Virus record (IMG/VR): IMGVR_UViG_3300010885_058128
Span: 1-28,768 of that record
From: a virus
Length of the DNA stretch: 28,768 nucleotides
Strand: one strand, 5' to 3'
The notes beneath the pieces were generated by a model. The model did not search any database and had not been told where the DNA came from. It saw nothing but the letters and a program-made list of their open reading frames with translations. Below are positions 4,535 to 9,656 of this stretch, one piece after another; position 1 is the stretch's first letter, and each line of letters opens with the position of its first letter. Made by a program: the position numbers and the translations under genes.

Positions 4535-4566
4535 TTGTATTTCTGGATATTTATCCATATCTTTAG
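4535..4566 (+). promoter_or_regulatory. Phage early promoter
   Basis: TTG 4535-4537, 20-bp spacer, TATCTTTAG 4558-4566; drives the ATG at 4586. The spacer contains the near-palindrome TGGATATTTATCCA. Confidence 0.8.
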
Positions 4567-4585
4567 GTAAATAAAAAAAGATACT

Positions 4586-4804
4586 ATGAAAACAATGAAG
4601 ACACTTAAGGTTTATGAATGGTTAGTTAATAAGGGAAGAGCTACTGGAGCCACTAAACTCCTAGTTCTATTTGAAGGGATAGAGGATCTTGACTATCCTG
4701 GACTAGAAGCTTTCTTGAAAATCATCTATAGGAAAGATTCGGAAGCTATCTTCAGAGAAATGCAATGTGATGTAATAACAACTTTAAACTTTACTCTACT
4801 ATGA
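4586..4804 (+). CDS. Small hypothetical protein
   Basis: 72 residues. A basic N-terminus (MKTMKTLKVYEWLVNKGRAT) is followed by a helical region (KLLVLFEGIEDLDYPGLEAFLKIIYR). No recognised family and no clear membrane span. The start is 19 nt after the promoter box, the usual distance. The stop TGA overlaps the next ATG (ATGA), so the pair is probably translated together. Confidence 0.7.
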   Translation: MKTMKTLKVYEWLVNKGRATGATKLLVLFEGIEDLDYPGLEAFLKIIYRKDSEAIFREMQCDVITTLNFTLL

Positions 4805-4932
4805 AAACGATTCAGGTGACTATGCAAGAGAGATGGGCTGCCTCAAGGCATAAAATCCATAAGTCAAAAAAATCCTATAACAGAAAAGAAAAACATGGGG
4901 GAAAACAGGCCAGAAAATCCTCTCCCCTCTAA
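4801..4932 (+). CDS. 43-residue strongly basic peptide
   Basis: ATG at 4801 overlaps the preceding stop; TAA at 4930-4932. The peptide is rich in Lys, Arg and His from about residue 16 on (HKIHKSKKSYNRKEKHGG), suggesting binding to RNA, DNA or an acidic protein, though no fold is recognised. Coupling to the upstream gene supports it. Its 3' end faces the predicted minus-strand RNA that starts near 5011, so antisense contact is possible. Confidence 0.6.
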   Translation: MKTIQVTMQERWAASRHKIHKSKKSYNRKEKHGGKQARKSSPL

Positions 4933-4933
4933 A

Positions 4934-5011
4934 AAAAAATTTGAGGCCAAGGTACTGCTCCGTCCACTCTTCCGACGCTATTTCAAAGCCAGGCCCCTTA
5001 TTCTCTTATCC
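4934..5011 (-). ncRNA. Predicted minus-strand small RNA, copy B
   Basis: Lies downstream (minus strand) of the promoter at 5018-5049, with no ORF. It shares a 26-nt block (plus-strand 4951-4976, one mismatch) and a GGGCCTGGC block with copy A. The shared block holds a CGUC / GACG stem closing a GGAAGAGUG loop. A minus-strand U run (complement of 4931-4939) could end it. The 5' and 3' ends are estimates. Confidence 0.5.
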
Positions 5012-5017
5012 TTCCCC

Positions 5018-5049
5018 CTAAAGATAGGGAATAATCTTCACATATACAA
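5018..5049 (-). promoter_or_regulatory. Minus-strand early promoter for RNA copy B
   Basis: On the minus strand: TTG (complement of 5047-5049), 20-bp spacer, TATCTTTAG (complement of 5018-5026). Identical boxes and spacing to the plus-strand early promoters. Confidence 0.75.
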
Positions 5050-5089
5050 CTATTTCACAAACTTTTTTTAAACTTTTTTTTCGTAGGAA

Positions 5090-5152
5090 AGTGTGAGGTA
5101 CTGCTCCGTCTACTCTTCCGACAGTCTCTCAGTGCCAGGCCCTTCTTTTTAT
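5090..5152 (-). ncRNA. Predicted minus-strand small RNA, copy A
   Basis: Follows the minus-strand promoter at 5159-5190 and contains no ATG-led ORF. Predicted fold: an outer stem GGCACUG / CAGUACC with one C-A mismatch, enclosing CUGUC-GGAAGAGUA-GACGG. Copy B has C-G where this copy has U-G in the inner stem. No U-rich terminator is seen, so the transcript may run into copy B. Ends are estimates. Confidence 0.5.
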
Positions 5153-5158
5153 TCCGTC

Positions 5159-5190
5159 CTAAAGATAAGGAAAAAGAATCAGGGCTACAA
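5159..5190 (-). promoter_or_regulatory. Minus-strand early promoter for RNA copy A
   Basis: On the minus strand: TTG (complement of 5188-5190), 20-bp spacer, TATCTTTAG (complement of 5159-5167). Strong match to the phage early consensus. Confidence 0.75.
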
Positions 5191-5339
5191 CTATTTTTTA
5201 TATTATTTTTAATAAATTAAGAAAAATAACAGCCAAGCTCTTTACTCCATGTAGCTATTCTCTTAGTGATTTCGTAGGGAAAACTAATGCAGGAGCTCTA
5301 ATTCACTAATCTTAGTAAGTAAAAAAGTTTATAAAAAAG

Positions 5340-5371
5340 TTGGATATATGGTATAAAAGTATTATCTTTAG
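5340..5371 (+). promoter_or_regulatory. Phage early promoter
   Basis: TTG 5340-5342, 20-bp spacer, TATCTTTAG 5363-5371, then the conserved leader GTATCATTAATTTAAAAC before ATG 5400. Confidence 0.85.
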
Positions 5372-5399
5372 GTATCATTAATTTAAAACATAGAAAATC

Positions 5400-5693
5400 A
5401 TGGCTAAAAAAACTTATCAAGACACTGACGGAACATCATTTCACGGAGTAACAATTCGAGCAACAGTTGAGCAATTAACAAAAGCTTTTGGAGATCCAGA
5501 TGATAATAATACGGGTGAGGACAAAGTAAATTTTGTTTGGGATATGGAAACTGACGAAGGAGAAGTATTTACGATTTACGATTGGAAAAATTACCGAAAA
5601 TTAAGATTGGATGAATATGTTGTATGGCATATCGGGGCAAGGAATAAATCTGTTGCTAATGATGCTGAGAGAGAATTGTTGAAAAAACTTTAA
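5400..5693 (+). CDS. Small acidic hypothetical phage protein
   Basis: 97 residues. The protein reads as a compact alpha/beta fold: TSFHGVTIRATVEQLTKAFG, then NFVWDMETDEGEVFTIYDWK, then an acidic C-terminal helix. The pattern F-x-G-V-T-I-x-A-T-x-x-x-L-x-x-x-F-G followed by a W-rich strand resembles small proteins I have seen in other phages, but I know of no assigned role. It is monocistronic: own promoter at 5340-5371 and a hairpin/promoter module after its stop. Confidence 0.75.
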   Translation: MAKKTYQDTDGTSFHGVTIRATVEQLTKAFGDPDDNNTGEDKVNFVWDMETDEGEVFTIYDWKNYRKLRLDEYVVWHIGARNKSVANDAERELLKKL

Positions 5694-5702
5694 AAAAAGT
5701 TT

Positions 5703-5735
5703 AAGGAATAGTTGTTTATATGATGACTATTCCTT
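5703..5735 (+). terminator. Inverted repeat, probable terminator fused to promoter
   Basis: Perfect 10-bp arms AAGGAATAGT (5703-5712) / ACTATTCCTT (5726-5735), 13-nt loop, followed by ATCTTTAGG. It sits right after the stop at 5693. Confidence 0.55.
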
Positions 5736-5743
5736 ATCTTTAG
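5712..5743 (+). promoter_or_regulatory. Phage early promoter
   Basis: TTG 5712-5714, 20-bp spacer, TATCTTTAG 5735-5743; serves ATG 5783 through a leader longer than usual (about 39 nt, with ATTAATCAATCAATAATTAA). Confidence 0.85.
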
Positions 5744-5782
5744 GTAAGTAATTAATCAATCAATAATTAAAACTTCAAAAAA

Positions 5783-5962
5783 ATGAAACATCCAAGTTAT
5801 CCAAATGCAAAGAATGAGTATTTAGGAACATCAGCTACAACGTTATCTCCAACGTCTAAACAAGCTCTAAACAAAACTATGAAGGAGTTTGCAGTTCGTT
5901 TAAATGCTATTGTTGCCAGAAAGGAAAAGGAAAAAGCAGATCGCTTATCCCAAACTTTCTAA
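5783..5962 (+). CDS. Small basic hypothetical protein
   Basis: ATG at 5783, TAA at 5960-5962; 59 residues. A polar, low-complexity N-terminus (MKHPSYPNAKNEYLGTSATT) is followed by a charged helix (KEFAVRLNAIVARKEKEKAD). The codon texture matches its neighbours. It has its own promoter (5712-5743) and is followed by the next hairpin/promoter module. Function unknown. Confidence 0.65.
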   Translation: MKHPSYPNAKNEYLGTSATTLSPTSKQALNKTMKEFAVRLNAIVARKEKEKADRLSQTF

Positions 5963-5972
5963 AAAAAAGTTT

Positions 5973-6005
5973 AAGGAATAGTTGTTTATATGATAGCTAT
6001 TCCTT
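5973..6005 (+). terminator. Inverted repeat, probable terminator fused to promoter
   Basis: Arms AAGGAATAG (5973-5981) / CTATTCCTT (5997-6005), perfect over 9 bp, just after the stop at 5962. Confidence 0.55.
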
Positions 6006-6013
6006 ATCTTTAG
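5982..6013 (+). promoter_or_regulatory. Phage early promoter
   Basis: TTG 5982-5984, 20-bp spacer, TATCTTTAG 6005-6013; ATG 27 nt further on at 6041. Confidence 0.85.
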
Positions 6014-6040
6014 GTATTATTAATTATAACATCAATAAAA

Positions 6041-6295
6041 ATGAGAAAAGGTACAGTTACAGGTGACTTACGAATTACATTAGCAGAATTAGGGGTTCCT
6101 TCTAATCAAGGAGTCTATTCAGATCCTTACACTAAAGGAAAAGTAGGTGTAAAAGTTTGTGATATTCGTCTAGATGATGAATTGAAAGAGATTGTAAAGA
6201 CTAAAATGGAACAGAAGGGTTATACGTTTCATTTTATTAGAGAGAATAGTACAGGATACTTCTCAGGAACTAGGTTTTGTTTCTCTAAAAACTAA
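6041..6295 (+). CDS. Small hypothetical protein
   Basis: 84 residues. The N-terminus has a helix (TGDLRITLAELGVPSNQG); the middle is beta-like (KGKVGVKVCDIRLDDELKEI) and the C-terminus aromatic (YTFHFIRENSTGYFSGTRF). It looks like a small globular protein with no membrane segment and no family I recognise. It is a single-gene transcription unit between promoters 5982-6013 and 6318-6349. Confidence 0.7.
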   Translation: MRKGTVTGDLRITLAELGVPSNQGVYSDPYTKGKVGVKVCDIRLDDELKEIVKTKMEQKGYTFHFIRENSTGYFSGTRFCFSKN

Positions 6296-6307
6296 TTAAA
6301 AAAAGTT

Positions 6308-6340
6308 AAAGGAGTAGTTGTTTAATTGCTCCTTTTTCAC
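6308..6340 (+). terminator. Inverted repeat, probable terminator fused to promoter
   Basis: Arms AAAGGAG (6308-6314) / CTCCTTT (6329-6335), followed by TTCAC and the promoter box. The arm sequence differs from that at 5703, but pairing is kept. Confidence 0.55.
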
Positions 6341-6349
6341 TATCTTTAG
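6318..6349 (+). promoter_or_regulatory. Phage early promoter
   Basis: TTG 6318-6320, 20-bp spacer, TATCTTTAG 6341-6349, leader GTATTAATAATTAAAACA, ATG at 6377. Confidence 0.85.
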
Positions 6350-6376
6350 GTATTAATAATTAAAACAACAAAAATC

Positions 6377-6724
6377 ATGATAAAAGTAAAATTAGTTCGT
6401 TTAGTAGTTTCAGGTCACGTAGGAGTATTAGATTGTGAAGAAATTATAACTTCACAAGTAAAAGATCAAAAACAATTAATCAGTTTGATTGTGAAGAATT
6501 TATCTTCAGACGATCAGGAAATTGCAAAGAGTATGTTTGAGAGAATTACTCGAAATAATTTAGTTGATAATATTGAAGGAGATTTATCAAGTAACGTTTG
6601 TTTGTTAGGATTAGATGAAGAAAATTACATTATGATTTTGCAAAATGAACTTGCAGATAGTTCAGAAGATATTTTTGCAGAACTTCACGACAAGTTTATT
6701 GATGAATTATATCAGGTAAATTAA
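6377..6724 (+). CDS. Hypothetical acidic protein
   Basis: 115 residues. It opens with a beta strand (MIKVKLVRLVVSGHVGVLDC) and is helical after about residue 30 (DQKQLISLIVKNLSSDDQEI), with an acidic C-terminus (DSSEDIFAELHDKFIDELYQ). The protein is soluble and unassigned. It forms its own transcription unit, with a hairpin/promoter module starting 13 nt after the stop. Confidence 0.7.
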   Translation: MIKVKLVRLVVSGHVGVLDCEEIITSQVKDQKQLISLIVKNLSSDDQEIAKSMFERITRNNLVDNIEGDLSSNVCLLGLDEENYIMILQNELADSSEDIFAELHDKFIDELYQVN

Positions 6725-6736
6725 TTTAAAAATAAT

Positions 6737-6770
6737 CGGAGAAGGTGTTGCATAATAAATACTTTCTCCG
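6737..6770 (+). terminator. Inverted repeat, probable terminator fused to promoter
   Basis: Arms CGGAGAA (6737-6743) / TTCTCCG (6764-6770), perfect over 7 bp, touching TATCTTTAG. Sequence unrelated to the other arms, pairing conserved. Confidence 0.55.
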
Positions 6771-6779
6771 TATCTTTAG
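6748..6779 (+). promoter_or_regulatory. Phage early promoter
   Basis: TTG 6748-6750, 20-bp spacer, TATCTTTAG 6771-6779; ATG at 6807 after GTATTAATAATTAAAA. Confidence 0.85.
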
Positions 6780-6806
6780 GTATTAATAATTAAAAAAGAT
6801 AAAATT

Positions 6807-6998
6807 ATGTTGGTAAAAGAATTAGTTGAGAGTCTATTAATGTTAGATCAAGAAAAAGAAATTAACTTCACATTCGGAGCTGAATCGGGTAGAAGTTATA
6901 TGTATGGTCATTCAGGAGAGCTTATGGATTTCGAAATAGAAGACGGGCAAGTTATATTTTCTCTAGATTTCGATGAAGAGAATTGTGATGAACAATAG
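6807..6998 (+). CDS. Small acidic hypothetical protein (helix-strand family)
   Basis: 63 residues, strongly acidic. The N-terminus LVKELVESLLMLDQEKEI is a helix leading to a strand, the same layout as TIRQLIEELSQIKDQEVKV in the gene at 3754; I infer a shared small fold. The remainder is beta-rich (IEDGQVIFSLDFDEENCD). It could be an acidic inhibitor or DNA mimic by charge alone, but there is no direct evidence. Own promoter and terminator. Confidence 0.7.
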   Translation: MLVKELVESLLMLDQEKEINFTFGAESGRSYMYGHSGELMDFEIEDGQVIFSLDFDEENCDEQ

Positions 6999-7019
6999 AA
7001 AATAAATTAAAAAAAGATA

Positions 7020-7050
7020 GCAGATCAGTTGATGGTCTGCTTCTTTTTAC
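7020..7050 (+). terminator. Intrinsic terminator
   Basis: Stem GCAGATC (7020-7026) / GGTCTGC (7034-7040), one G-U pair, 7-nt loop, followed by TTCTTTTTAC. The promoter TTG lies in the loop. Confidence 0.7.
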
Positions 7051-7060
7051 TTATCTTTAG
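7029..7060 (+). promoter_or_regulatory. Phage early promoter
   Basis: TTG 7029-7031, 20-bp spacer, TATCTTTAG 7052-7060; ATG at 7086. Confidence 0.85.
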
Positions 7061-7085
7061 GTATTAATAATTAAAACATATAAAG

Positions 7086-7343
7086 ATGATTGTAGAAAAT
7101 TTATTACGAGAGACTTCAAACAAAAAGATCTTCACTGTAACGTTTGTTAAGAAGGATGGTAGCATTAGAAAAATGAATGCTATGAGAGGAGTTAGAAAAG
7201 GAGTAAAAGGAGCTGGTCATTCATTTGATCCTTCTGAGAAGAATTTATTGACTGTCTATGATATGCAAATCGGAGCTTTTAGATTTGTTAACTTAAATGA
7301 TGTACTTTCGTTTAGAGCTAACAAAAAAACTTTTACAAAATAA
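7086..7343 (+). CDS. Small basic hypothetical protein (SH3-like look)
   Basis: 85 residues, basic. The layout is helix (MIVENLLRETSNKK), paired strands (IFTVTFVKKDGSIRKMNAMRG), a glycine- and lysine-rich turn (KGVKGAGHSFDPSEKN), then LLTVYDMQIGAFRFVNLNDV. The end pattern VYD-MQ-x-GAFR-x-VNLNDV looks like WYL/SH3-like small phage proteins, and I recall similar phage proteins without known function. Own promoter at 7029-7060; another promoter follows directly after the stop. Confidence 0.72.
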   Translation: MIVENLLRETSNKKIFTVTFVKKDGSIRKMNAMRGVRKGVKGAGHSFDPSEKNLLTVYDMQIGAFRFVNLNDVLSFRANKKTFTK

Positions 7344-7355
7344 GTTAGTAAAGAG

Positions 7356-7387
7356 TTGGTACCTAGAGATATTATTACTATCTTTAG
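7356..7387 (+). promoter_or_regulatory. Phage early promoter
   Basis: TTG 7356-7358, 20-bp spacer, TATCTTTAG 7379-7387. A weaker 6-bp inverted repeat (TAGTAA 7346-7351 / TTACTA 7375-7380) spans it. Confidence 0.82.
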
Positions 7388-7415
7388 GTATCAATAATTT
7401 AAAACGATAAATGTT

Positions 7416-7562
7416 ATGGAAAATCAAGAAAAATTCTACGAGTGGTTAATTAGTTTAGGAAGTATTCATACAGCCGACTCTGAGGGAATGAGCAAAGCTT
7501 ATATTGCAATAGCAGAAAATGATGAAAAAATAGTTGTTAAAGAAGTTGTTTTATCGAATTAG
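7416..7562 (+). CDS. 48-residue acidic hypothetical protein
   Basis: ATG at 7416, TAG at 7560-7562. The peptide has a helix (NQEKFYEWLISLGSIHT) and ends in a strand (DEKIVVKEVVLSN). An ATG at 7411 is out of frame, so 7416 is used. It lies at the normal leader distance from the promoter at 7356-7387. Its last codons contain the TTG box of the next promoter, so coding and promoter sequence overlap. Function unknown. Confidence 0.62.
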   Translation: MENQEKFYEWLISLGSIHTADSEGMSKAYIAIAENDEKIVVKEVVLSN

Positions 7563-7577
7563 TTTACTTATCTTTAG
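7546..7577 (+). promoter_or_regulatory. Early promoter beginning inside the upstream gene
   Basis: TTG 7546-7548 lies within the last codons of the 7416 gene; 20-bp spacer; TATCTTTAG 7569-7577; ATG at 7605. Confidence 0.82.
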
Positions 7578-7604
7578 GTATCATTAATTAAAAACATAAA
7601 CACT

Positions 7605-8345
7605 ATGAAAAATTATTCAAATGAGATTGCAGAATTAGAGGCTCAAATTACAGAAGCAAAAAGAGAGCAAAGATTGTTAGAGGAATCTAATAATGAGAAA
7701 GTTCAAAATGTTCTAGATTATTACTTTAATTATTTCCTAGAGATGGAAGTTAAAGTGAGAGGAACTTACGCTACTTTTCATTTAAAAGATGAAGAGGGTT
7801 ATAATAAAGAAATCTTTAGTCTATACTTTGATGGAAGATATCAGCAAGAAGCTACTCTAAGAATCTCTTACTATTCGACTTCTACGAATTCAGATTTTGA
7901 AATAGAAAGATTAATCTTAATTGGAAAAGCTGCTCAAGTTATCAAAAGAAGCTCAGAGATTATCTTATCGACGATCAAAGGTACGAGAAAACTAGATCTC
8001 GAAAAAACAAATGAATTGTTCTCTAATCAATTGAAATATGAGAATCAAATCAAGGATTACAGAAATTCAGAACTTCAAGAGAGAAAAGCTCAGATAGAGT
8101 TGGAGTTAAAGAATGGAGGAGTTACTTTCGAAGTACCAAGAGAAATCAAGTTTAAATTTAATTATGTAATCTATGTTAAATTTCTTAAGATAATCGATAT
8201 TTCGAAATCAGGGAAAACTTGTACAGTGATCTTCAAAACTAGAGATGGATATGAAACGAGAGAAGAAAATTGTAATATACAGAATGTAATTGATCAAGTT
8301 ACATCTCTTCATAAAAGCATTGTATCAACTTTAGAGTTGGTATAG
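7605..8345 (+). CDS. Coiled-coil hypothetical protein
   Basis: 246 residues. It starts with a long charged helix likely to form a coiled coil (EIAELEAQITEAKREQRLLE, about residues 6-25), followed by a mixed middle (YYFNYFLEMEVKVRGTYATF) and a second helical segment rich in Lys/Glu (residues about 140-170, ELQERKAQIELELKNGG). The C-terminal third is beta-like. No enzyme motif, signal peptide or membrane segment is seen. It is the largest protein of the early island and has its own promoter, with a terminator-like hairpin about 25 nt after the stop. Function unknown. Confidence 0.72.
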   Translation: MKNYSNEIAELEAQITEAKREQRLLEESNNEKVQNVLDYYFNYFLEMEVKVRGTYATFHLKDEEGYNKEIFSLYFDGRYQQEATLRISYYSTSTNSDFEIERLILIGKAAQVIKRSSEIILSTIKGTRKLDLEKTNELFSNQLKYENQIKDYRNSELQERKAQIELELKNGGVTFEVPREIKFKFNYVIYVKFLKIIDISKSGKTCTVIFKTRDGYETREENCNIQNVIDQVTSLHKSIVSTLELV

Positions 8346-8370
8346 TTTTAATTATTGATCGAAGAAGAGA

Positions 8371-8392
8371 CTCCTTTTTAAGGGGCCTTTTT
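8371..8392 (+). terminator. Possible intrinsic terminator
   Basis: CTCCTT (8371-8376) can pair with AAGGGG (8380-8385, one U-G pair), followed by CC and TTTTT. It lies 26 nt after the stop at 8345. The loop is short, so support is moderate. Confidence 0.4.
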
Positions 8393-8417
8393 GGGTTAAA
8401 AAAAGTTTTGAAAAGAG

Positions 8418-8449
8418 TTGTTTATATGATAGTAATTCCTTATCTTTAG
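8418..8449 (+). promoter_or_regulatory. Phage early promoter
   Basis: TTG 8418-8420, 20-bp spacer, TATCTTTAG 8441-8449; ATG at 8476 after GTATCAATAATTAAAACA. No overlapping inverted repeat; the separate terminator at 8371 takes its place. Confidence 0.85.
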
Positions 8450-8475
8450 GTATCAATAATTAAAACATATAAAAA

Positions 8476-8643
8476 ATGAAAGCATTTAAAAAGGTTATGG
8501 AAGTTAAAGAGTCTTTTAATAATTATATAGATCAGATGATTGAGGACTTGAAAGAGGATGGAATTGATTTGGAGGAAATGAACTGCTTGGATGAAGACTT
8601 AGGGTTTATGCTTCATAGTGCATTAGAAGATTGTGAAATATAA
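8476..8643 (+). CDS. 55-residue acidic helical protein
   Basis: ATG at 8476, TAA at 8641-8643. After a basic start (MKAFKKVMEVKESF) the rest is acidic and helical (IDQMIEDLKEDGIDLEEMNC), ending in LHSALEDCEI. Its position 26 nt after the promoter box and before the next hairpin/promoter module supports it. No family recognised; the acidity could suit an anti-host protein, but that is a guess. Confidence 0.65.
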   Translation: MKAFKKVMEVKESFNNYIDQMIEDLKEDGIDLEEMNCLDEDLGFMLHSALEDCEI

Positions 8644-8657
8644 ATTAAAAAAAGTTT

Positions 8658-8690
8658 AAGGAATAGTTGTTACTATGATGACTATTCCTT
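8658..8690 (+). terminator. Inverted repeat, probable terminator fused to promoter
   Basis: Arms AAGGAATAGT (8658-8667) / ACTATTCCTT (8681-8690), perfect over 10 bp with a 13-nt loop, after the stop at 8643. Same arms as at 5703. Confidence 0.55.
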
Positions 8691-8698
8691 ATCTTTAG
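8667..8698 (+). promoter_or_regulatory. Phage early promoter
   Basis: TTG 8667-8669, 20-bp spacer, TATCTTTAG 8690-8698; longer leader with ATTAATCAATCAATAATTAA, as at 5744, before ATG 8739. Confidence 0.85.
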
Positions 8699-8738
8699 AG
8701 GGAAGTAATTAATCAATCAATAATTAAAATCAATCATC

Positions 8739-8936
8739 ATGGAAAAGTTTTTCGAAGAGCAGTTTAAAATGTTAGACAGAGGAATAGTAGCAACTCCTAA
8801 CACAAGAGAAGATCTTGAAGCATTTGCTAAAGCTAATAATGGTTCAATGGATATCCTTCTAATGCAAATGGCTATGAACTTTGGCTATAAGATGGTAATA
8901 GAGAATGTTCAAGAGGAATTAATGAAAGTAGCATAG
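8739..8936 (+). CDS. Small helical hypothetical protein
   Basis: 65 residues, mostly helical: MEKFFEEQFKMLDRGIV, then NTREDLEAFAKANNGSMDIL, then an amphipathic Met-rich segment (LMQMAMNFGYKMVIENVQEE). No recognised family. It is the first gene of a two- or three-gene unit; the next ATG follows the TAG stop with no gap. Confidence 0.68.
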   Translation: MEKFFEEQFKMLDRGIVATPNTREDLEAFAKANNGSMDILLMQMAMNFGYKMVIENVQEELMKVA

Positions 8937-9182
8937 ATGAGTGAACAGAATATCAAAGGAAGTTGGAAGGGGATCAAGACATCCCCTTCTATCCCGGAAG
9001 GGCCCATTCTAGGAATGATCTACCAAGGAGTAAAGACAAGAGCTAGGATTGGATCGGGAATGAATATAGTAGGGATGTTGATAGAAGTTTTCCCTAATGA
9101 AGGAGATGCTATACTCAGAGATAAAGAAAACTTTCCTCATTGTGTAGACTATAAGTCATTAAAGATAGTAATAAATAATTAA
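8937..9182 (+). CDS. Small beta-rich hypothetical protein
   Basis: 81 residues. It contains ILGMIYQGVKTRARIGSGMN and a closing FPHCVDYKSLKIVI strand, suggesting a small beta-barrel fold. No family is recognised and no catalytic motif seen. It starts at the base after the upstream stop, so it is probably coupled to the 8739 gene. A broken membrane-peptide frame follows 4 nt later. Confidence 0.68.
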   Translation: MSEQNIKGSWKGIKTSPSIPEGPILGMIYQGVKTRARIGSGMNIVGMLIEVFPNEGDAILRDKENFPHCVDYKSLKIVINN

Positions 9183-9186
9183 GAGT

Positions 9187-9279
9187 ATGTAAACATTAGC
9201 AGTAGTAGGGTTTGGAATATTTGCAGTAGCATTCGTAGTATTAGGGGTAATGATTACCCGTCCAATGGACGAAAAATAA
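9187..9279 (+). pseudogene. Membrane micropeptide frame with stop at codon 2
   Basis: ATG at 9187 is followed directly by TAA (9190-9192). The same frame then reads TLAVVGFGIFAVAFVVLGVM and ends ITRPMDEK at TAA 9277-9279, a typical single-span membrane peptide. One base change (TAA to AAA) would restore a 30-residue protein starting MKTLAVV. It is either a recent nonsense mutation, a sequencing error, or a frame that is not translated. Confidence 0.5.
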
Positions 9280-9291
9280 TTAATAAAGGAG

Positions 9292-9323
9292 TTGGATGTA
9301 TGATCTCTTTTCCTTATCTTTAG
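9292..9323 (+). promoter_or_regulatory. Phage early promoter
   Basis: TTG 9292-9294, 20-bp spacer, TATCTTTAG 9315-9323; ATG at 9350. Only a weak AAGGA/TCCTT pairing spans it. Confidence 0.85.
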
Positions 9324-9349
9324 GTATCAATAATTAAATAGATATCATT

Positions 9350-9592
9350 ATGACAAGAGAAGAATTTATTGCAGGAACAGAATTTAGAATCGGAAGAAAC
9401 TTCTTTAAGAAAGAAGAAGACACAATCACAAAGATCTATAGATCGAATGATGAGTCTAGAGTAGTAATGGAAGACTATCATATGAACATCGAGAAGATGG
9501 GTAGGGTAGGATTTGAAGCTTTTACTTACGTCTTAAATAAAAGGGTTAGTAGAAAGATTAGATTTGAGGATTTAGAGTTGTTCAAGAGTTAG
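9350..9592 (+). CDS. Small basic hypothetical protein
   Basis: 80 residues. The N-terminus reads MTREEFIAGTEFRIG; the middle is beta-like (DTITKIYRSNDESRVVMEDY) and the end basic (NKRVSRKIRFEDLELFKS). The T-R-E-E-F-x-x-G-T-x-F start followed by strands suggests a small SH3-like fold. Role unknown. Its TAG stop (9590-9592) lies inside the 5' arm of a strong terminator, so the gene and its termination signal are fused. It is the last gene of the early island. Confidence 0.72.
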   Translation: MTREEFIAGTEFRIGRNFFKKEEDTITKIYRSNDESRVVMEDYHMNIEKMGRVGFEAFTYVLNKRVSRKIRFEDLELFKS

Positions 9593-9615
9593 CCTTCGGG
9601 CTAACTTCTTTTTTA
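9587..9615 (+). terminator. Strong intrinsic terminator
   Basis: Perfect 8-bp stem AGTTAGCC (9587-9594) / GGCTAACT (9599-9606) with a TTCG tetraloop (9595-9598), then TCTTTTTTA. The stop codon of the 9350 gene is part of the stem. Confidence 0.9.
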
Positions 9616-9624
9616 ATATACAAC

Positions 9625-9656
9625 TTGTATGGGAACTTTTTTTTCCTTATCTTTAG
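9625..9656 (+). promoter_or_regulatory. Early promoter with no ORF behind it
   Basis: TTG 9625-9627 (inside ATACAACTTGTAT), 20-bp spacer, TATCTTTAG 9648-9656. The usual GTAT(C/T)AATAATTAAAACA leader is absent; the sequence continues CCGACGTCACGGTGAC. Confidence 0.82.

Follow-up and report, generated by a model that had tools for sequence, protein, structure and literature searches.

Two RNA copies on the minus strand of the window

The stretch of DNA analysed here, which we call the window, is a virus record of 28.8 kb (28,768 nucleotides) related to Flavobacterium phage immuto, with 76% DNA identity to it in the region of the DUF932 gene. Directly after this gene the window has an ORF (1547-2299) that by eye resembles a GIY-YIG type homing endonuclease, and immuto has no such gene at the corresponding place. 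At about 4.9-5.2 kb lie two copies of a short sequence, here named RNA1 and RNA2, both read from the minus strand (Table 1). The original prediction, made from the letters of the window, saw in them a duplicated, promoter-driven and non-coding RNA gene pair, and its description of the primary sequence is confirmed: a 26-nt block is shared by the copies with one base different (4951-4976 and 5097-5122), and GCCAGGCCC comes after this block in both. Ungapped extension yields 58 nt with 79% identity at a distance of 146 nt. The orientation opposite to the surrounding genes also holds for both copies, and so does the claim that they are non-coding, as neither core has a minus-strand ORF of at least 20 aa, nor a start codon on that strand. 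The covariance model R1, which has both copies among its training sequences, gives no matches in the window besides these two. The homologue of RNA1 in immuto phages was found independently by blastn (E 9e-13), and in these phages too it is read from the minus strand at the corresponding place, beside a homologue of the small gene 4801-4932. In the immuto record, a 33-aa hypothetical protein, immuto26A_125, is annotated opposite the RNA (MW353175.1, 67454-67552; locus L061, 16585-16683), which is probably a spurious gene call. A pattern taken from the window alone, GGAAGAGTNGACGGAGCAGTAC, gave no matches, because its GGAGCAG is seen only in the window.

Table 1. Positions of the RNA features, their promoters and the neighbouring small gene in the window
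Feature	Position	Strand	Basis
RNA1 promoter, TTG-N20-TATCTTTAG	5159..5190 (TTG 5190-5188, TATCTTTAG 5167-5159)	-	exact match
RNA1 conserved core (58 positions of the family model)	5086..5143	-	cmsearch with model R1, 65.8 bits, E 2.8e-15
RNA1 covarying hairpin (CCUGGCAC...UGUCGG, U bulged)	5118..5139	-	covariation across the family
RNA1 invariant segment AAGAGUAGAC	5108..5117	-	invariant or nearly so in alignment A1 and the wider family
RNA2 promoter, TTG-N20-TATCTTTAG	5018..5049 (TTG 5049-5047, TATCTTTAG 5026-5018)	-	exact match
RNA2 conserved core	4940..4997	-	cmsearch with model R1, 61.7 bits, E 4.4e-14
RNA2 covarying hairpin	4972..4993	-	family covariation
RNA2 invariant segment AAGAGUGGAC	4962..4971	-	alignment A1; A to G at position 7, known elsewhere in the family
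RNA2 likely 3' end (GGCCUC, then AAA and nine U)	4931..4948	-	inferred from sequence and MFE fold; specific to this copy
Small ORF beside the RNA (synteny marker, outside the RNA)	4801..4932	+	78% identity over 32 aa to the immuto26A_124 product

Each copy was predicted to lie behind a perfect promoter TTG-N20-TATCTTTAG, and exact matching finds both. On the whole, the window has 15 such promoters while 0.08 are expected by Markov simulation, and the spacer is exactly 20 nt in all of them. Only the two in front of RNA1 and RNA2 belong to the minus strand, the other 13 to the plus strand. The 13 plus-strand promoters are spread over 4535-9656 in a cluster of small genes, as an unusually uniform phage promoter set. 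At the other end of RNA2, the GGCCUC of the likely 3' end could pair with GGGGCC at the 5' end (4997-4992), judging from the letters and the MFE fold, while a simple terminator scan, restricted to short loops, reports no terminator there.

A conserved hairpin and an invariant segment

The members of the family are short (about 55-95 nt), structured and non-coding, and they share a core that begins with (G)GGG, continues with a hairpin and the invariant AAGAGURGAC directly 3' of it, and then has UCC or a G-rich variant. In most lineages the part after AAGAGURGAC reads UCC-R-N-C, the G-rich variants being those of the window's lineage, and further 3' there is purine-C, often with a YUAUA stretch. 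The outer pairs of the hairpin are C-G, C-G, (bulged U) and G-C in most members, and the most diverged copies retain mainly GUAGACUCC.

Covariation proves the 5' hairpin to be real. In an alignment of 73 distinct sequences, which was fitted to a model containing the hairpin, 87.9% of cells are paired against 71.9% in shuffles, with 67 doubly changed cells against 18.1 and a covariation score of 0.411 against 0.168. An unfitted MAFFT alignment shows the same hairpin result, and RNAalifold predicts the same helix unaided. When the partner is shifted by one column, pairing falls to 42-50%, and shifts of 1 to 3 columns destroy it. The closing pair, anchored on the flanking letters, is C-G in 58 copies and U-A in 10, with no mismatch.

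This hairpin replaces the one that had been proposed for the window, a stem CUGUC/GACGG versus CGUC/GACG closing a GGAAGAGU[A/G] loop. That stem is refuted: over 49 members its pairing is 61.6%, the same as the shuffled mean of 61.6%, and the upstream hairpin has as its 3' arm the CGG that precedes AAGAGU. The complementarity is present in the two window copies, and its bases belong to the hairpin located further 5'.

When all columns are scanned for mutual information, the 5' hairpin is the only convincing helix to emerge. Two further candidates were rejected, namely a small hairpin GUA/UAC around the 3' part, in which compensatory change is absent, and a helix closing the 5' leader with the 3' end, which among 44 representatives gives -5.77 kcal/mol against -5.62 with shuffled partners, being good in single lineages (W2, L030, L209 and L226). 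MFE folding of the single window copies is also not better than for shuffles (z of -0.29 and -0.75). Given the failure of the closing helix and the non-significant MFE, the 3' half is without supported structure, and the fold is only partly known.

A family apparently specific to phages of Bacteroidota

The original prediction had called for a covariance-model search of other phages, and such a search confirms family members across many viral contigs. A shared-core pattern found 71 stretches in viral contigs, from which four loci (L067, L072, L095 and L097) were excluded after inspection of their sequences, while a 3'-half pattern found 44 and a third pattern 87; the pattern matches were confirmed with covariance models. 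Overall, the carriers are about 130 distinct viral contigs, counted by contig names and up to 368 kb long. Together with the covariation, this conservation in many other phages strongly supports the reading of a duplicated, promoter-driven and non-coding functional RNA, and we are highly confident that the RNA family exists. It is likewise strongly supported by sequence that the window RNAs are members of an apparently phage-specific family, carried by phages of Bacteroidota with Flavobacterium-like hosts.

The copy number per genome runs from one to nine, and the copies diverge from each other and are scattered over both strands. Among cultured phages, immuto (Flavobacterium) has one copy, Larrie (Tenacibaculum) has three with the third being weak, and the Cellulophaga phages phiST and phi13:1 have three each. 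The search with model R2 found no copy in 12 other named phages, namely crAss001, phi14:2, phi38:1, phi40:1, phi10:1, PTm1, pT24, FCL-2, P12002L, P12024L, P2559S and B124-14. High copy numbers are seen in contigs of 53 kb (nine copies), 233 kb (eight) and 340 kb (six). The nine copies of the first (contig IMGVR_UViG_3300032288_004603, 52.8 kb; G522, loci L337-L345) are divergent, lie on both strands and extend over 28 kb (3639-31820). Grouping by proteins shared in the fetched flanks, at a threshold stricter than that of single linkage, which had merged nearly all carriers via a few shared proteins, gives four groups with at least six members and many singletons. One group consists of immuto-like phages with a baseplate wedge protein, another has a terminase nearest to that of Nonlabens phage P12024L, and another has a GroEL gene.

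Two local arrangements recur around the RNA. At L268 and in the group of L204, L208, L224 and L229, a second, convergent core is located 40-70 nt downstream. The given strand there reads GGAGTCTACCC or a variant of it, the other strand GGGTAGACTCC, and two such RNAs, being convergent and overlapping, might base-pair with one another. In immuto-like phages, an array of ACTTTAAGTTAAAG-like short inverted repeats comes directly after the RNA (L061, 16506-16580, and related loci), possibly being its 3' end.

In bacterial genomes, the first model gave two weak matches in 395 class-level host genomes, both coding-like and thus no convincing cellular copy, and the second model gave none in 399 family-level host genomes; under the strict filters, with few candidates scored per genome, a diverged cellular relative could escape both searches. 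As a control, 45 genomes were searched, two of them assemblies known to hold a carrier contig; these two gave matches, with 1 and 3 copies, and the remaining 43 gave none. Most pattern matches in genome_contigs were rejected, as they resemble chance matches inside genes, and the two retained, L145 and L172, are on phage-like contigs in metagenome assemblies. In the assembly of L145, a bacterial metagenome assembly, one contig (C5 of G003) bears three RNA copies, and it is probably a phage contig binned with its host. In addition, plasmids show no match to the RNA.

Concerning transcription, a Bacteroidota-type promoter (TAnnTTTR with TTG 17-23 nt before it) is found upstream of 57 of 87 RNA copies, against 151 of 3000 random positions (5%), and the distance from promoter to core across the family is about 10 to 25 nt. 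Other lineages have recurrent upstream motifs of their own, GATAATA or TTGTAACTTTTT..ATCGTTATA, which may act as promoters. The latter recurs before the RNA and elsewhere at L066, L071, L115, L346 and L347, and is probably a phage-specific promoter. The flanking genes are opposite in strand to the RNA in the window, at all three Larrie copies and at several other loci; in phiST, one copy faces a gene of the opposite strand and another has no annotated gene downstream. This orientation is not universal among the carriers, as in some lineages a same-strand ORF begins 70-330 nt downstream. The opposing flanking genes make the copies look like stand-alone transcripts, each made independently from a putative promoter. 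With such a promoter of their own, no coding capacity and a conserved structure, they have what is generally expected of a stand-alone phage small RNA.

No known relatives of the family were found by sequence. Rfam 15 gives no match at gathering score in the window, and none at looser thresholds on the carriers and the RNA locus. From Rfam 15 and the open-access literature, the family is apparently undescribed, and neither Bacteroidota nor Flavobacterium appears in a review on small RNAs derived from phages (PMC12197685). The most informative comparison is with abiF RNA (RF03085), the antitoxin of AbiF, which is also short, has a hairpin and an invariant stretch, and occurs in phages and Bacteroidia. 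Its motif, 36-37 nt long, acts as an antitoxin (PMC12373285), and phages are among its reported sources (PMC12373285; PMC12197685). Unlike the RNA studied here, abiF RNA has another sequence and another arrangement of conserved bases, and is tied to abiF genes, whereas no minus-strand gene, and so no abiF (Abi_2) gene, follows the window RNAs. A relation was rejected by sequence and by covariance model: the abiF model, which does detect the abiF RNAs of Bacteroidia, has no gathering-level match in the window and none at E<=10 in 4800-5300. Type III antitoxins are head-to-tail repeats within one transcript, with a cognate toxin gene, while the copies here are dispersed and have separate promoters, and no toxin gene was recognised in the neighbourhood of the window copies.

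Among other RNAs, the stable RNAs C and D of phage T4 are likewise non-coding, with unknown function; they belong to unrelated phages, whereas the present family has many lineages, many copies and covariation. RNA anti-CRISPRs and mimics of type III antitoxins such as pseudo-ToxI are phage RNAs that copy a host RNA to occupy a host effector, whereas the RNA here is without a host original in the genomes searched. The c4 antisense RNA controls an antirepressor. This RNA of P1-like phages (RF01695) is also a small structured non-coding RNA encoded by phages, gives no match in the Rfam scan of the window, and is described from proteobacteria and their phages (PMC2864571). The structured RNAs 6S-Flavo, Flavo-1 and Bacteroidales-1 (RF01685, RF01705 and RF01693), and further RNA motifs of Bacteroidota, come from the same phylum and were described from bacteria (PMC2864571); they are part of the Rfam collection in which no match was obtained.

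Possible functions of the RNA

The reading we prefer, with about an even chance of being right, is that of a structured phage RNA made early by the host polymerase, which titrates or inhibits in trans a host factor common to Bacteroidota, most likely a protein. Host RNA polymerase would make the RNA early in infection, since the promoters of the RNA equal those of the small-gene cluster. The RNA would then accumulate and act in trans, its hairpin presenting the invariant single strand AAGAGURGAC(UCC) to the host factor. An invariant single strand next to a stem of free sequence is the usual look of an RNA that binds protein or RNA. The factor, once bound, would be titrated or inhibited, and several promoter-driven copies would raise the dose. 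In fact, the amplification to several independently transcribed copies suggests such a dose effect, as for a decoy or inhibitor, and the step of a protein decoy is proposed because of this copy number and the lack of easy base-pairing targets. Some copies are sense-oriented upstream of genes, where a role in cis is possible.

The main rival, which we consider unlikely, is a trans-acting antisense RNA whose AAGAGURGAC(UCC) base-pairs with a conserved RNA of the host or the phage. The location of the conserved segment outside the supported hairpin would suit it, and the A-to-G variant (W2, L017 and L063) would retain a G-U pair with a U in the target. The targets themselves, however, do not appear: of 100 family-level host genomes only 18 contain the 12-mer GGAAGAGTAGAC or its complement, a share close to that of the backward control, and complementarity to the rRNA operon (plus strand of L198) reaches at most 8 nt of the 10-nt core. 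Complementary sites in the phages are also not in excess, with 8 against 8.4 in the window and 8 against 6.4 in 25 kb of immuto. These tests leave room for shorter or gapped pairing, and for tmRNA, RNase P, 6S and mRNA targets. The idea that the RNA copies a conserved host RNA, or is complementary to one, was rejected from the chance-level occurrence of GGAAGAGTAGAC in the 100 genomes and the weak rRNA complementarity; the 5S rRNA of one Flavobacteriaceae genome contains GGAAGAGUAGG.

It is rather improbable that the RNA is a counter-defence decoy mimicking the regulatory RNA of a defence system, such as an AbiF or type III antitoxin or a CRISPR repeat, and thereby keeps the effector off. An RNA that is phage-specific, small and multi-copy, with a short hairpin and a conserved single strand like abiF RNA, would fit this idea. 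A mimic is expected to have a cellular original, however, and the scans with the RNA models, under strict filters, revealed none in the 395 and 399 host genomes (about 790 together), among which CRISPR and antitoxin arrays should be represented. Moreover, the abiF RNAs of Bacteroidia differ in sequence and fold, and the Rfam abiF match is absent.

A role in cis is a poor candidate as well; the RNA would then be an element heading the early transcripts, such as an antiterminator of the kind of the HK022 put RNAs. The position close to the promoter agrees with it, as do the same-strand ORFs downstream in some lineages. A put-like antiterminator stands at the 5' end of the transcripts of the genes it serves, but the neighbouring genes run opposite in the window, at the three copies of Larrie and at other loci; of the phiST copies, one is followed by a gene of the opposite strand and another by no annotated gene. 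Furthermore, the plus-strand promoters of the window are without the RNA element.

We give slightly less credit still to a replication primer transcript or a single-stranded DNA element (an R-loop origin or a priming site). A promoter followed by a structured transcript in intergenic position would be compatible with this, and single-stranded DNA would also give hairpin covariation, but up to nine copies per genome on both strands are unlike an origin, and so is the variable promoter-core distance of about 10 to 25 nt. Finally, chance or a small coding gene, for which one could cite the 33-aa plus-strand ORF annotated in GenBank over the immuto copy, can be regarded as refuted, since the differences in hairpin length are not multiples of three and go along with compensatory changes, no minus-strand ORF lies in the window copies, the RNA is conserved across different phage backgrounds, and no conserved reading frame is seen across the family.

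A further reading, held with considerable doubt, sees in the RNA a dedicated multi-copy counter-measure that would neutralise, by RNA alone, a defence or growth-control factor shared by most Bacteroidota hosts, for which different phages, including very large ones, would have gained and amplified the RNA. If true, such a counter-measure would be an RNA inhibitor not copied from any host RNA. The spread over many phages, in multiple copies with their own promoters, suggests an important job during infection. A phage RNA whose function is unknown has usually been met in no more than a few phages, while the present one recurs in about 130 contigs from several groups, and Flavobacterium, Tenacibaculum and Cellulophaga each have cultured phages that carry it. 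The family could reveal a host factor that phages of Bacteroidota commonly must handle, and tests in culture should be easy.
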